NCBI GenBank assembly: GCA_001302245.1
Contig: LGYU01000002.1
Location: 62,001-126,000, forward strand
Source: Chitinophagaceae bacterium PMP191F
GTDB lineage: Bacteria; Bacteroidota; Bacteroidia; Chitinophagales; Chitinophagaceae
Length of the DNA: 64,000 nt
Direction of reading: 5' to 3'
Part shown: piece after piece, positions 33,987-63,800 of the stretch
How the letters are laid out: every line of letters begins with the position of its first letter
Position numbering within the stretch: position 1 is the first letter of the stretch
The notes under the pieces: generated by a model
Databases searched by the model: none
Seen by the model: the letters and a program-made list of their open reading frames with translations, nothing else
Told to the model about the DNA's origin: nothing
Translations under genes and position numbers: made by a program

Positions 33987-34139
33987 ATGGACATTTTTGG
34001 TTAGCAGATGATTAAATAGCAAAATACATATAGTAAATTTCAAATGGAAATTTTATTTGTAACAACATGATTACACAGTGTGAATATTTTCAATATTTGT
34101 TTTCCGCGTTATTTCATGCCCCAACAGTATCTTCGGGTC

Positions 34140-35063
34140 ATGAATTCGTATCAATTTCCCCGCCAGACCAACTTCTACAGAGGTAAAGTACGTGATGTAT
34201 ACACGATCGATGATCAATGGCTGGTAATGATAGCCTCCAACAGGATCTCTGCATTCGATGTAATTTTGCCACGCCCCATTCCTTATAAAGGACAAGTATT
34301 AAATCAAATAGCTGCTTACATGCTCAATGCCACGAAAGACATTTGTCCCAACTGGCTGCTGGAAGTACCCGCACCGAATGTGTCCATCGGCCGCAAATGT
34401 GTTCCGTTCAAAATAGAAATGGTGGTTCGTGGTAACGTTACCGGACATGCGTGGAGGACCTATTCTTCCGGAAAACGTGAACTGTGCGGTGTTACGATGC
34501 CCGAGGGCATGAAGGAAAACGATTTTTTCCCCACTCCCGTTATCACTCCTTCCACAAAAGCTGCGGAAGGGCATGATGAAGATATTTCCAGGGAAGAGAT
34601 CATTGCACAGGGACTGGCCACTGCCGAAGAATGGGCCGTTCTTGAAAAGTATACGCTGCAGTTGTTTGAACGCGGTAAAGAAATTGCTGCCCGGCAGGGA
34701 TTGATCCTGGTAGATACCAAATACGAATTTGGCAAAATTGGCGATGAAATTTTCCTGATGGACGAAATCCATACTCCCGATTCCTCCCGCTATTTCTACG
34801 CTGATGGTTTTGAAGAAAGACAAGCCGCCGGTGAACGCCAGAAACAGCTCAGCAAGGAATTTGTACGCGAATGGCTTATTGCCAATAATTTTATGGGCAA
34901 AGAAGGACAGGTAATGCCCCAGATGGATAACGAATGGGTAAATACCATTTCAAAAAGATACATTGAGCTGTACGAAAAAGTGATAGGCGAACCTTTTACA
35001 CCGCAGGATCTGGACGAAGCCGAAACCACCGGCCGCATTCTGCATGCATTGGAAAAGTTGTAA
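34140..35063 (+). CDS. purC: Phosphoribosylaminoimidazole-succinocarboxamide synthase
   Basis: 307 aa from the ATG at 34140 ([21 protein letters not shown]), the start that fits the family; the frame is open 20 codons further upstream without conserved residues. PurC joins aspartate to CAIR in purine synthesis using ATP. The GKVRDVY loop, the [13 protein letters not shown] motif, the [20 protein letters not shown] segment, and [10 protein letters not shown] plus [11 protein letters not shown] (metal and substrate residues) are intact. The length is that of the longer purC subclass (about 300 aa). The divergent TonB receptor lies 150 bp away. Confidence 0.97.
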
Positions 35064-35131
35064 ACAATTCGGTTTTTATATTCCCTTTCCCCTCAACAAT
35101 ATAAAAACGGATAATGCTAAAATGATTGTCC

Positions 35132-36004
35132 ATGAATATTGTTGTTATTGGTGCAACATGAATGATAGGCAAACCGGTTACCCGCGAACTTATCAGCGCC
35201 GGTTTTAATATTACCCTGCTTGTACGGAATGCACAAAAAGCACGGCAGCTTTTTACCGGTGTAAATATATTGCAGGGTGATGTGTTTAACACCGACAGTC
35301 TTATTGCCGCCTTTAAAGGACAGGATGCCGTATACATCAGTCTTGCCCCTCCGCACAATGGACGTCCGGACCATATCCTGCCCGAAAGGGAAGGTATTGA
35401 CAATATCATTGCCGCGGCACAGCAAACCGGCATCCGCCGGATCGTATTGTTATCATCACTGATACAGCAATACAACAATACCAACGGCTTTCACTGGTGG
35501 GTGTTTGATATAAAACAGGCTGCCGTGGAAAAGATCAAAGCGAGCGGTATACCCTACACCATCTTCTACCCTTCCACTTTTATGGAAAGCATTGACCAGT
35601 TAATGCTGCGGGGCAACCGCATTATGCTGGCAAGACGTTCCCTTGCACCCATGCATTTTATTGCCGGCAGTGATTATGGCAAACAGGTAGCATGGTCGTT
35701 CAGAAAACTGACCACAGAAAACCGGGAATACAATATACAGGGGCCCGCTGCCTGGAACTGGGATGAAGCAAGTCAGCGTTTTATCCGTTGTTATACTGTA
35801 CGCAAACTGAAAATAATGAAGGTGCCTGCTGCTATGCTCCGGTGGATGGGTGCACTGAACACTACCATCGGGTATGGCGCAAAAATTTCTGAAGCGCTGA
35901 ATAACTTTTCCGAACAGTTCGTTTCTGAAACTACCTGGAACGAACTGGGCAAGCCGCTTATCATCATAGAAACATATGCAGAAAAGCTTACCCGGATACA
36001 GTAA
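35132..36004 (+). pseudogene. NmrA-like NAD(P)-binding protein gene interrupted by an in-frame TGA
   Basis: From the ATG at 35132 the frame reads MNIVVIGAT, then TGA (35159-35161), then MIGKPVTRELISAGFNITLLVRNA and continues for 280 codons. In atypical short-chain dehydrogenases this segment is the Rossmann motif GATGxxG, so the TGA stands exactly where GGA (Gly) is expected; a single G-to-T change explains it. The rest looks intact: DVFNTDSLIAAFKGQDAVYISL, the IVLLSS strand, and the later PYTIFYPSTFME. An ATG directly follows the TGA, so reinitiation could give a 280-aa product lacking the first beta strand and part of the cofactor loop, probably inactive. A sequencing error is the alternative. 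Confidence 0.75.
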
Positions 36005-36098: not shown

Positions 36099-37226
36099 AT
36101 GAAGAGAATTCTGTTATTGCTTGCTGTTGCCTTTTTGCTGCAACAGGTATCTGCACAGGTTAACAAAAGCTATTATATGCTGGCCGGCACCTATACATCC
36201 GGTAAAAGCAAAGGCATTTACGTGTACAAATTCAACACGGCAGACGGCAGTGTGCAGGAAGTCAGCACAGCGGCAGCTTCCAATCCTTCTTTCCTGGCAG
36301 TTTCACCCGATGAGAAGTATGTTTATTCAGTATATGAAGACGCCAATAAAGGCAAAGGTGGAGATGTAGCCGCCTATTCATTCAATAAACAAACCGGGCA
36401 GCTCACTTTTATTAACCGTGAACCTTCCGGCGGTGATCATCCTTGTTTTGTAGCAGTAGACAAAACCGGCAAATGGGTTACAGCCGGTAACTACAGCAGC
36501 GGTAGCCTGTCCTTGTTACCTGTTCAGCCCGATGGAGCCATTGGTGCCATGAAACAACATATTGAACATACCGGCTCCGGTACCGACAGATCAAGACAGG
36601 AAAAACCACACGTGCACAGCACCTTTTTTACCCCGGATAATAAGTGGTTACTTGTTCCAGACCTGGGCATTGACAAAGTAATGATCTATTCATTTGATGC
36701 AGAGAAAGGTTCACTGGTACCCGGTCCGCAGGGTTTTGCCAAAACCACCGACGGTGCAGGACCAAGACATCTTGATTTTCATCCCAATCATAAATATGTA
36801 TACCTGCTGGAAGAAATGGGCGGTCATGTAGTAGTATACAAATACAACAACGGAAAGCTGGATCCCATTCAGCGTGTGAATGCATTGCCTGAAGGTTTTA
36901 AAGGCACCGTTGGCAGTGCTGATATTCATGTATCTGCCGATGGCAGGTTTGTATATGCTTCCAACCGTGGTTCTGCCAACAATATTGCCGTATTCCAGGT
37001 AAATCCTAAAAACGGCAAGCTGTCTATGATCAGCCTGACACCTACACAGGGTACTGTACCCCGCAACTTCAGCATTGACCCTTCCGGAAACTTTTTACTG
37101 GTAGCTAACCAGACATCTGACAACATTGTGATCTTTAAACGCGACCAGGAAACAGGCAGGCTCACTCCTACCGGTAAAGAGATCAGTATTCCCAACCCGG
37201 TTTGTATTAAGTGGATCAGTGAGTAA
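36099..37226 (+). CDS. Secreted lactonase-family beta-propeller (6-phosphogluconolactonase YbhE-like)
   Basis: 375 aa. Signal peptide (MKRILLLLAVAFLLQQVSAQ), so unlike cytosolic Pgl it is exported. Seven-bladed propeller repeats recur: GIYVYKFNTADGSVQEV, NPSFLAVSPDEKYVYSVYE, HPCFVAVDKTGKWVTAGNY, KPHVHSTFFTPDNKWLLVPDLGIDKVMIYSF, GPRHLDFHPNHKYVYLLEEM, and a final VPRNFSIDPSGNFLLVANQTSDNIVIF. These match the lactonase (PF10282) family. The physiological substrate of the periplasmic form is not known. A long inverted repeat separates it from the convergent trhO. Confidence 0.88.
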   Translation: MKRILLLLAVAFLLQQVSAQVNKSYYMLAGTYTSGKSKGIYVYKFNTADGSVQEVSTAAASNPSFLAVSPDEKYVYSVYEDANKGKGGDVAAYSFNKQTGQLTFINREPSGGDHPCFVAVDKTGKWVTAGNYSSGSLSLLPVQPDGAIGAMKQHIEHTGSGTDRSRQEKPHVHSTFFTPDNKWLLVPDLGIDKVMIYSFDAEKGSLVPGPQGFAKTTDGAGPRHLDFHPNHKYVYLLEEMGGHVVVYKYNNGKLDPIQRVNALPEGFKGTVGSADIHVSADGRFVYASNRGSANNIAVFQVNPKNGKLSMISLTPTQGTVPRNFSIDPSGNFLLVANQTSDNIVIFKRDQETGRLTPTGKEISIPNPVCIKWISE

Positions 37227-38480: not shown

Positions 38481-38506
38481 ATTGAACACCATGTTCCCCA
38501 AACACT

Positions 38507-38995
38507 ATGATATTCAAAGCGTCATTAGATACTGTGGCTAAAATCCTTACCATTGGTATCACTCTTTTGTTCGGAGCCTCCGTATTGTTGCAGGTTTCCA
38601 TTATCAAATCAGGACAAGGCGCAGGCGTTGCCTTTGGCATCAGCACACTGCTGGTCATTATCTATGCAGTTTGTTACCTGCTGCACCCTGTACAGTATAC
38701 TGTTACCACTACAGCTATTGTCATTCACCGGCCACTGGGCAAAATATCCATTCCAAAAAGTGAAGTACTTACTATTACTCCCCTTACCAGCGAGCAGATG
38801 AAATGGACCATCCGCACCTTTGGTGTAGGTGGTTTGTTTGGCTATTTTGGCAAGTTTGCCAATAGTAAAATTGGCAACATGACCTGGTATGCCAGCCGCC
38901 GCAACAATATGTTACTGATCACTACCACCAGCCATAAAAAGATTATTATTACCCCCGACAACCCGGACTTGTTTATTCAACATGTAAATACCTGA
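38507..38995 (+). CDS. Membrane PH-domain protein (bacterial bPH type)
   Basis: 162 aa. Two transmembrane helices near the N-terminus (about residues 10-30 and 39-60) are followed by a beta-rich domain: VQYTVTTTAIVIHRPLGKISIPKSEVLTITPL, then WYASRRNNMLLITTTSHKKIIITPDNPDLFIQHV. The pattern 'Y.it...i.i.rp.g...ip..eI' and the ending 'i.itP.np..Fi..l' are those of bacterial PH (bPH_5-like) domains. Function unknown; relatives are membrane-associated stress or signalling proteins. Confidence 0.75.
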   Translation: MIFKASLDTVAKILTIGITLLFGASVLLQVSIIKSGQGAGVAFGISTLLVIIYAVCYLLHPVQYTVTTTAIVIHRPLGKISIPKSEVLTITPLTSEQMKWTIRTFGVGGLFGYFGKFANSKIGNMTWYASRRNNMLLITTTSHKKIIITPDNPDLFIQHVNT

Positions 38996-39077
38996 ATACA
39001 ATGATTGAATGGTATGAGCGCTATGTAAAAGAAATTTCGTGGAACAATGACCGCTGATTATTTTGCAGTCACCCTAC

Positions 39078-39707
39078 ATGACCACCGGATCTACAGCACA
39101 ATACATAGCTGCCATACGCAAAAGCAAAGGCATGACGCAGGAAGAACTGGCTGACAAAGCTGCTGTTACTGTGCGCACCATCCAGCGTATTGAAAGTGGA
39201 GAAAGCGCCCCCCGCGACTATACATTAAAGGCCATTGCTGCCGCACTGGACATTGATCCGGCAATATTTTTTCCACGTGCTCCCGTATTAACACCGGCAA
39301 CTACAGAAACACCGGATGAGAACACGCATCATTTTCTGCAAATGCTGAACCTCTCCTGTTTTTCTTTTATAGCAATTCCCTACATCCATTTCCTGGTGCC
39401 ATCGCTTTTGCTGAAAAACCACCGCGACAATAAATTTGTGATGCGTACCGGACGGCGTATGGTCCGTTACCAGGTATGGTGGACGATTGTGCTCAACGTA
39501 TGCATGCTTTGTGTTGTGGCCATTAACCTGGCAGCGAAAAAACTATTCCATTCCTCTTTTTATATCAGCTACCTGTGGACTGCATTGTTCATTTATCTGC
39601 TCAATGCCATTGTAGTAGCTGCCGCTGCATGGCAGTTGCATAAAGAAAATTACAATGTGTACACCCGCACTTTTTTTAAAAAGCTGTTAGGCCTTCGCTC
39701 CACATGA
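39078..39707 (+). CDS. XRE-type HTH protein with C-terminal membrane segments
   Basis: 209 aa from the ATG at 39078 (a TTG five codons upstream is less likely). Residues about 5-60 are an XRE/Cro helix-turn-helix (YIAAIRKSKGMTQEELADKAAVTVRTIQRIESGESAPRDYTLKAIAAAL). After a linker of about 30 residues there are three hydrophobic stretches (CFSFIAIPYIHFLVPSLLL, WWTIVLNVCMLCVVAINLA, YLWTALFIYLLNAIVVAAAAW), resembling a DUF4870-type domain. The DNA-binding part would be tethered to the inner membrane. Signal and targets unknown; the neighbouring PH-domain membrane gene on the same strand may be related. Confidence 0.8.
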   Translation: MTTGSTAQYIAAIRKSKGMTQEELADKAAVTVRTIQRIESGESAPRDYTLKAIAAALDIDPAIFFPRAPVLTPATTETPDENTHHFLQMLNLSCFSFIAIPYIHFLVPSLLLKNHRDNKFVMRTGRRMVRYQVWWTIVLNVCMLCVVAINLAAKKLFHSSFYISYLWTALFIYLLNAIVVAAAAWQLHKENYNVYTRTFFKKLLGLRST

Positions 39708-45372: not shown

Positions 45373-45720
45373 TTATTGTTTACGCAGTCGCAGATAACAA
45401 CCCGTCAGTGCAGCAAAACCAGCTACCATAGCGCCTACCAGTGCTGTTATCAGTATCAGCAGCCACGATGAACCATTCAATGGTAGTAGTAAAGCTATTT
45501 TATGCGAAAGCAGTCCCTGGTTCTTTACATCGATCCACCAGGCCAGGCCACCCCATAGCAAAAATAATCCCAGAAATCCGGACAGGTAAGCCAGTCCCGG
45601 TTTCTGTGGAATAGCAGCAGCTACTATAAATGCCGCCACCGCAATGCTCCACCAGCCCATAAATAGTCCTAACGCCATACTCAGTAGAAGGGTTAAAACG
45701 ATGGAAATGATAAACTTCAT
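45373..45720 (-). CDS. Small four-helix membrane protein, unknown function
   Basis: 115 aa. Four hydrophobic stretches (FIISIVLTLLLSMALGLFMGW, SIAVAAFIVAAAIP, LAYLSGFLGLFLLWGGLAWWI, LLILITALVGAMVAGFAAL) and a basic tail (YLRLRKQ). No family recognised. It sits between penicillin acylase (57 bp upstream) and the RDD gene (8 bp downstream) on the same strand, so it is real and probably co-transcribed. Confidence 0.75.
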   Translation of the reverse strand: MKFIISIVLTLLLSMALGLFMGWWSIAVAAFIVAAAIPQKPGLAYLSGFLGLFLLWGGLAWWIDVKNQGLLSHKIALLLPLNGSSWLLILITALVGAMVAGFAALTGCYLRLRKQ

Positions 45721-45777
45721 TATAATATTTTGTATTGGATGTTACAGATCGTATTGTTATTACCGGTATGTAGCCAT

Positions 45778-60803: not shown

Positions 60804-63800
60804 CTATTGCTTAATGAAGCGTGCAGACAAACGGGTTTTGTTGTCAATATTCACGTCTACATTATACACACCTTGCGTTAATTTACTGATGTCGACCGGC
60901 AACTGTGTTACCGTACTGTTTTTGGTAAACACATGTTTCCAGGTTGCTTTACCGGCCATGTCATAAAAAGTTACCCGTGTACGTCCTGTAGCTATACTGT
61001 TGCATACCAGCTGAATAGTATTAGTAGCAGGATTAGGATATACCTGTACACTGCCAGTACCTACAGTAACCTGTTCAGTGGCCGTTGCCTTCGCCTTTAC
61101 CTCAACAGCATCTTTGGCATCGACAGTTACAGCAGGTACAGTGTTGATGGTATCAGTAACTTTTGCTGCAGCATTGGTAGCAGCATTTACAGTTACCACC
61201 ACAGTATCGCCGGTAGGATACCATTCATTATCCCATACGGTTAAGCTGAATACATACCTGCCCTGCACAAGACCGGTTACAGTAGTAGTAGCTGCACGCG
61301 AGCTGGTAATATTGTACTGTGCAGGCCCGCTGAGCCTGATCCACTCATACGCACTGATCTTTCCATCAGGATCATAAGAAGCACTTCCATCCAGTGTAAC
61401 ACTGTTTACCGGTAATGTAATGGTTACATTAGGACCAGGTTTTACCACTGCATACTGATTTGCCGGAGCGTTTACAACTACAGTAGTAGTGTCAGCCGCA
61501 GTAGCACCTTTACTATCAGTAACCAGCAGACTGAATTTGTAGGTTCCCTGTACCAGATTGCTGACACTGGTTGCAGCAACAGCACTATTGGTAATGGTAT
61601 ACTGTGAAGGACCTGATATTTTGGTCCACTTATAGCTGCTGATGGTAGCACCGGTAGCAGGCGTAGCTACCCCACTCAGCATAGTAGTACTTGTGGGCAA
61701 TGTAATGGTTACATCAGAACCTGTGGTTACCGTGGTTACAGATACAGCAGCCCCTTTTACAGTAACAGTTACAGTATCGTTGGTAGGATACCATTTGCTG
61801 TCCCACATACCTAACTGGAATTTATACACACCTGCCACAAGCCTGCTTACCTTGGTAATGGCTGCTGTAGGCGTTTCAATGGTATACTGATCAGGACCTG
61901 ATATTTTGGTCCATTTAAAAGCATTGATCTTACCATTGGGATCGTAAGAAGAAGATCCGTCCAGTGTAACACTGTTCGCCGGCAATGTAATGGTTACATT
62001 GTCACCGGCATGTACACCAGGTGTTTTAGTTACAGTGGCAGGATTTACCACCAGTATCATGCTATCAGCAGCGGTCAGTCCTTTACTGTCTGTAACCTGT
62101 AAACGGAAATTATAAGTACCCTGCACCAGGTTACTTACACTGGTTAATGCGGCATTGGTATTGGCAATGGTATATTGCGCAGGGCCTGACACTTTTGTCC
62201 AGCTATAGCTGGCAATACTATTGGTACCCGCAGTGGCACTACCGTTCAGTGTGGCACTGTTGGCAGGTAAAGTGATCAGGATGGCACCACCCGCATTGGC
62301 AACAGGTGGTACAGTGACCGGTGCTGCATTTACCACAATAGTAGTAGTATCAGTAGCAAACAAGCCAGCATTGTCGGTTACTTTTAAACAGAACCTGTAG
62401 GTACCCTGTACCAGGTTGCTCACGCTCGTTGCGGCAACATTGGCATTGGCAATGGTATATTGTGTTGGACCAGCTACTTTACTCCAGTTGTAAGTACTTA
62501 TAGCATTGGTACCTGCAGCAGCAATTCCGTTCAGTGATGCGGTATTGGCAGGCAATGTAATGGTACTACCAGCTCCGGCACTTACTGTGGGCGCGACAGG
62601 CGCTGCATTTACTATAATGGTAGTAGTATCGGTAGCAGACAGCCCTGTATTATCAGTTACCTTCAGACAAAACCTGTAGGTACCCTGCACCAGATTGCTT
62701 ACACTGGTTACGGCAACACTGGCATTGGCAATGGCATGTTGTGTTGGACCTGCTACTTTACTCCAGTTGTAGGTGCTGATAACATTGGTACCAGCAGTAG
62801 CAGTTCCGTTCAGTGATGCGGTATTGGCAGGCAATGTAATCGTTGCAGTACTTCCTGCACTAACTACCGGTGGTTTACTGCCGGCAGCAGCTTTTACAGT
62901 AATGGTGATCCGTGCATCGCCCGGCAGCCACAGGTTATCCCATGCGCGCAGGTTGAACACGTATACGCCTTCTACCAGGTTTGATAAGGTAGCGTTGGCG
63001 CTTTTGTTATTGGTCAGTGTATAAGTATCAGGGCCACTTACTTTAGACCATTCATAAGCCCCTACCACACCATCAGGATCAGTAGCACTTCCGTTCAGTG
63101 CCACCGTGTTGGTGGGTAATGTAATGGTAACATTGGAACCTGCATTTACAACAGGAGGCTGGTTTACACCGGTACCGTTGGTAACATTTACCTGCATAGT
63201 ATCCAGCGTCCAGTCTGCACGGTCATCTATTGCTTTCAGTTCAAATGTGTAGGTACCGGCAGTACTTAAACCGGTAACAGAGGCAATACCATTGGTAGAT
63301 ACTGCATTGGACATACCTACTGATACAGGACCGGAAATATTTCTCCAGACATAACGTACTATTTTTCCATCCTGATCGGTAGACTGTGAGCCGTTCAGCG
63401 TAGCAGCACCACCAGTGGTAGTAACATTCTGTGCAGAGCCGGCAACAGCAACCGGGCGTTTATTTACTGGCTTGCTTTTATCCTGTGCAATGAACCATTC
63501 AAAAATGTTCGGGTTCTGCCAGTTGTAATCAGTATCATACACACGTCCCCATATCCAGTGGTCACCGTCGGGCCAGATGGTTTTATAAGGCTTTACAGTG
63601 GGACTGCAATTATTAATATTGGTGATGGCATTATTGGTACAGCTTGCACTTACTGTTCCATCATTCGTAGCATGGAAAGCCCATACAGGAAGATTGGCAC
63701 TGGCAAAGTTACACCAGCTAATACCCTGACAGGTACCACAGCTTACACCCACAGCTGCAAACTTCATTGCATTGGCCAGTGAGCTGCCTGCATAATACCA

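Follow-up and report, generated by a model that had tools for sequence, protein, structure and literature searches.

A probable young nonsense pseudogene of an NmrA-like gene, with an in-frame TGA at a Rossmann-motif glycine

We analysed a 64,000-nt stretch of DNA (the window), positions 62001–126000 of a contig of 237,794 bases; the genome comprises 6.45 Mb in 66 contigs. Between purC and a lactonase-family gene, the forward strand carries a frame at 35132–36004 that reads MNIVVIGAT, TGA (35159–35161), 280 sense codons beginning MIGKPV, and TAA (36002–36004). Counted from the first ATG and including the TAA, this makes 291 codons (9, TGA, 280, TAA). Translation bore out the first-pass annotation, which had placed an ATG at 35132, the TGA and TAA as above, and a second ATG at 35162–35164; the latter directly abuts the TGA of the NmrA-like frame. 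The parts of the locus are as follows.

34137–35063, + strand: purC (SAICAR synthetase), the upstream neighbour (Pfam PF01259, 234 bits), also a neighbour in relatives; its left end is a putative GTG start codon that we chose.
35072–35108, + strand: AT-rich hairpin (11 pairs) in the gap that separates purC from the NmrA-like gene, from a fold of the stretch 35061–35131.
35132–35158, + strand: native start and first nine codons (MNIVVIGAT), comprising strand β1 and the start of the glycine-rich loop; like the N-termini of 37 relatives, with a β strand at residues 2–6 in the model of an intact relative.
35159–35161, + strand: TGA, in frame, where the GxxGxxG motif has its second glycine.
35162–36004, + strand: remainder of the NmrA-like gene, 280 codons and TAA, with Pfam NAD_binding_10 and NmrA above cut-off.
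36099–37226, + strand: lactonase-family β-propeller protein, the downstream neighbour (Pfam PF10282, 421 bits), also a neighbour in relatives.

The 71-base stretch 35061–35131, which holds the hairpin and a second predicted stem, folds to −12 kcal/mol (z −2.96), a stability that 2 of 200 shuffles reach, and the hairpin is possibly the end of the purC transcript. An out-of-frame ATG at 35122, ten bases before the native start and with TAAA ahead of it, opens a short frame that crosses the start region; it may compete for initiation or be a chance occurrence.

The 280 codons after the TGA match the Pfam profiles NAD_binding_10 (PF13460; 92.4 bits against a cut-off of 27.2, E 4.3e-26) and NmrA (PF05368; 61.6 bits against a cut-off of 27, E 1.2e-16), and by these profiles the window protein is of the NmrA/NAD(P)-binding Rossmann type. 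The N-terminal GxxGxxG loop is not present in a continuous frame, being broken by the stop at its second glycine. Four NCBIfam matches, none near its cut-off, give the protein no named function. Solved NmrA-like and NAD(P)-binding structures show weak sequence matches to the part after the TGA; they include E. coli QOR2 YtfG (2zcu/2zcv), triphenylmethane reductase (2vrb) and S. aureus SAV0421 (3e48), all of the same sequence family. Modelling suggests that these NmrA-like proteins share their fold with an intact relative of the window gene: the predicted structure of the relative matches NAD(P)-binding Rossmann proteins and places the first strand at residues 2–6. What sets the window gene apart from the solved proteins is the stop within its glycine motif. 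In the Rossmann fold, strand 1 lies at the centre of the sheet.

We compared 37 loci from relatives codon by codon, leaving out a partial copy (L039) and a repeat (L059) of the place of another locus, L058; the 37 are not all independent, since some of the named genomes may belong to the same species as unnamed ones. The named-genome scan gave six loci, the named relatives being Spirosoma, Fibrisoma, Mangrovivirga and a Bacteroidetes MAG. Together with the gene content, they point to a Bacteroidota bacterium as the source of the window. All 37 relatives have a glycine codon at the position of the TGA, in agreement with the earlier assignment of the stop to a Rossmann-motif glycine. The following codon is ATG in 30, Leu in 5 and Arg in 2, and all 37 have an open frame upstream with a strand-1 sequence and a methionine. 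Their N-termini read M..I..IGATG and near variants; because MNIVVIGAT resembles them, the TGA interrupts one gene rather than marking a gene boundary. The ATG of the relatives sits inside a longer frame, so the ATG at 35162 encodes the conserved methionine that follows the motif glycine. The first-pass annotation had asked whether this ATG is the normal start in relatives; with a glycine codon and an open, methionine-containing upstream frame in 37 of 37, we rejected it as a native start. The stop is seen in the window genome only and is carried by none of the 37 relatives, including 15 that share one or both neighbours. In four genomes from a different genus of the family, the orthologues show 58.6–60.8% identity to the window gene, which together with the Pfam matches marks the frame as genuinely coding.

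The partial copy L039 also has glycine at this position. It comes from the same metagenome contig (MEOK01000023.1) as L038, and the two are truncated and full NmrA-like copies, respectively, near-identical over about the first 60 codons. Stops flagged in two relatives were dismissed: a TAG in the G184 relative sits at the C-terminal end of that gene, and two TAA in G610 mark the end of a frame (L068) that is stop-free to the usual C-terminus.

A search of 59 related genomes found 37 with some match at E ≤ 0.001. The only strong match besides that of the window itself was a locus in G006 (4.7e-51); two loci from this search (L002 and L003) were used, the others being weaker and more distant (E 2.5e-10 or worse). 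With at most six candidates per genome scored, the NmrA-like gene is present at E ≤ 1e-20 in 21 of 394 family genomes and in 13 of 395 phylum genomes, the window genome included in both counts. The gene is thus a patchy accessory gene, dispensable in the family: few genomes have it, and in one of these the copy is broken by frameshifts. This copy, L058 (G365:C52, − strand), belongs to another genus of the same family, lies beside purC and carries two frameshifts; its end abuts a lactonase match that starts at residue 140 of the window's lactonase. L058 is an independent decay of the same locus.

The gene for purC, the lactonase or both lie beside the orthologue at 15 of 20 other same-family loci and at none of 16 further loci, a count that excludes L038 and in which absence is not firm because flanks are short. 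Since this neighbourhood is common to 15 of the 20, the window gene occupies the orthologous place and is not a stray copy. In its own genome we found no close paralogue, only two weak matches (32% and 30% identity over ~100 residues).

Beyond the TGA the gene is in good order, as the first-pass annotation had judged from its appearance. We aligned the part after the stop in 34 sequences, four of 38 having been left out beforehand (L058 as broken; L038, L070 and L071 as distant). Relative to this family alignment the window protein neither lacks nor adds columns; it departs at 2 of 38 highly conserved columns, and 7 of the 34 rows have more such departures. One departure replaces Ser by Ala at column 64. 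The other, at column 162, replaces a conserved glycine by arginine (LARRS against LAGxS in relatives), a change that could be early decay or ordinary variation. The branch leading to the window protein, by our own tree sums, measures 0.344, in line with ~0.34, 0.40, 0.41 and 0.41 for four sister sequences from the same node, and so shows no acceleration.

Against the four nearest relatives dN is 0.29–0.34, pS 0.73–0.75 and dS at least ~2.5; dN/dS proper is not informative at this distance, as synonymous sites are near or at saturation. The 280 codons contain no further stop, where ~30 would be expected per unit of neutral change per site, and a simple Poisson count bounds the time without constraint at ~0.10 neutral changes per site (95%). 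With so small a bound, and synonymous sites close to saturation, constraint, if lost, was lost recently relative to the divergence from the nearest relatives. Free of gaps and further stops and on an unaccelerated branch, the part after the TGA looks to have been constrained until recently. A brand-new pseudogene, a sequence error and a gene that is still used would all look alike in these tests.

The intactness of the rest of the gene and the draft state of the assembly, in 66 contigs, would both suit a base-calling or assembly error, with the gene intact in the organism and the TGA absent. The site, however, lies far inside its 237,794-base contig, and the completeness listed for the genome is 99.99%, with contamination given as 0. 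The usual assembly error is of the indel type, whereas this lesion is a substitution. No other split gene was noticed among the 48 long frames of the window, which were inspected by eye and not systematically; Pfam searches on ten frames gave families for nine (the exception is 45376–45741, − strand), and no neighbours looked like halves of one gene. An error is unlikely, if the most plausible of the alternatives. That the TGA is sense here, through selenocysteine or a changed code, has nothing for it beyond the TGA itself and is hardly conceivable. The best SelB score in the genome is 187.3 bits, below the cut-off of 242.25 that 2 of 14 control genomes pass. RF2 is present (468.5 bits against a cut-off of 370), and 7 of the 48 long window frames end in TGA; the TGA-ended frames 38486–38992 and 39051–39704 match Pfam above cut-off. 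The relatives carry glycine rather than cysteine, and the stop is not conserved at the position. ARAGORN output contains no UCA anticodon for 44 loci covering 46 tRNA matches, 2 of which loci gave no call; the matches derive from 150 scored of 272 first-look candidates and include one tRNA-like gene without a readable anticodon. Selenocysteine and a code change were rejected within the reach of these SelB, RF2, tRNA and TGA-ended-frame tests.

Constraint up to the recent past would also fit a functional leaky gene, in which UGA readthrough makes a useful full-length protein and the stop acts as a brake on expression. In PMC7918605, bacterial genes with in-frame stops and dN/dS below 1 are interpreted as readthrough, many such constrained genes are read as functional, UGA is called leaky, and low-level UGA readthrough in the enteric bacteria E. 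coli and Salmonella is described as inserting tryptophan. The window gene resembles those genes in the constraint around the stop; what sets it apart is that its stop is absent from all 37 relatives compared. Tryptophan, the probable product of readthrough at the motif glycine, should impair the cofactor loop; RF2 is present, and no suppressor-type UCA anticodon occurs among the scanned tRNA loci. The stretch 35140–35260 folds no better than shuffles (z 0.09), revealing no RNA structure that would promote readthrough. As for the constraint itself, the same is expected of a brand-new pseudogene, just as, in counterpoint, present-day constraint is equally expected of a gene used through readthrough. 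We consider a leaky gene improbable. A ribosome that halted at the TGA might instead restart at the next codon and make a working 280-residue protein. The abutting stop and start make a restart mechanically plausible, and PMC10666635 describes termination-reinitiation as strongly dependent on overlap or very close spacing. Yet the codon equivalent to the ATG at 35162 lies within the relatives' frames, and the restarted protein would, as the first-pass annotation foresaw, lose the cofactor-binding strand: its predicted sequence is missing strand 1 as well as two of the three motif glycines. Over the first 90 residues the 280-residue form is also modelled less confidently than an intact relative (means of ten-residue blocks ~71 against ~84 in matching blocks), a weak comparison in which models of different sequences came from 5-row alignments with overall pLDDT of 57 and 59. 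Such a working restart is extremely unlikely. A real, functional UGA, in which a leaky stop at the cofactor glycine and beside a restart codon sets a low level of the NmrA-like protein in this lineage, perhaps as a mixture of full-length and truncated forms, seems to us very unlikely.

The locus is therefore best read, with good probability, as an accessory NmrA-like gene that has very recently become a nonsense pseudogene; base error ranks next, then leaky function, then working reinitiation. A recent pseudogene was also one of the three readings offered by the first-pass annotation, beside error and reinitiation, and is the best supported of them. In this pseudogene, one recent nonsense substitution would have hit the second glycine of the GxxGxxG nucleotide-binding motif, and translation from the native start would stop after nine residues. 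UGA readthrough or a restart at the adjacent ATG would yield at most a little product, the restarted form would be without strand 1 and most of the dinucleotide loop, and the allele would be null or nearly null. We infer both the presence of the TGA in the organism itself and the inactivity of the product. The placement of the stop on a motif glycine is unremarkable alone, because a single substitution would likewise turn any of 71 among the 280 downstream codons into a stop.

The single-lesion form is common: of 378 Salmonella pseudogenes in PMC2916853, 346 carry just one inactivating change, which in 131 cases is a premature stop. The window gene shares with the young single-nonsense pseudogenes described there one point change in an otherwise intact frame and intact orthologues at the same place. 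It differs from the Salmonella case in having no close strain by which to date the change: a search of the genus returned one genome only and the nearest relatives are ~60% identical, so that the time of the nonsense change is poorly bounded.

The locus calls for caution in annotation. A gene caller would probably start at the ATG at 35162, which would hide the lesion and present an apparently intact 280-residue NmrA-like protein that is in fact without the cofactor loop. As a pseudogene it would be a further case in which an accessory gene with a patchy distribution was lost very recently, an ordinary kind of find.

Two minor observations concern other parts of the genome. The tRNA-like gene without a readable anticodon (G000:C4:25970–26044, − strand; L122:71–145) scores 34.2 bits with the Rfam tRNA model and lies beside a tRNA-Thr/Gly/Tyr/Thr cluster. 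Among 59 other family genomes it has no match above 81% identity except one of 21 bases. Over 57 bases it shares 76% identity with the adjacent tRNA-Thr, and from this resemblance it is probably a degenerate tandem copy. The locus L082 (G000:C6:153621–153941, − strand) gives a weak match to the release-factor profile prfB and contains seven in-frame stops; it is a possible release-factor-like remnant, or a chance match.
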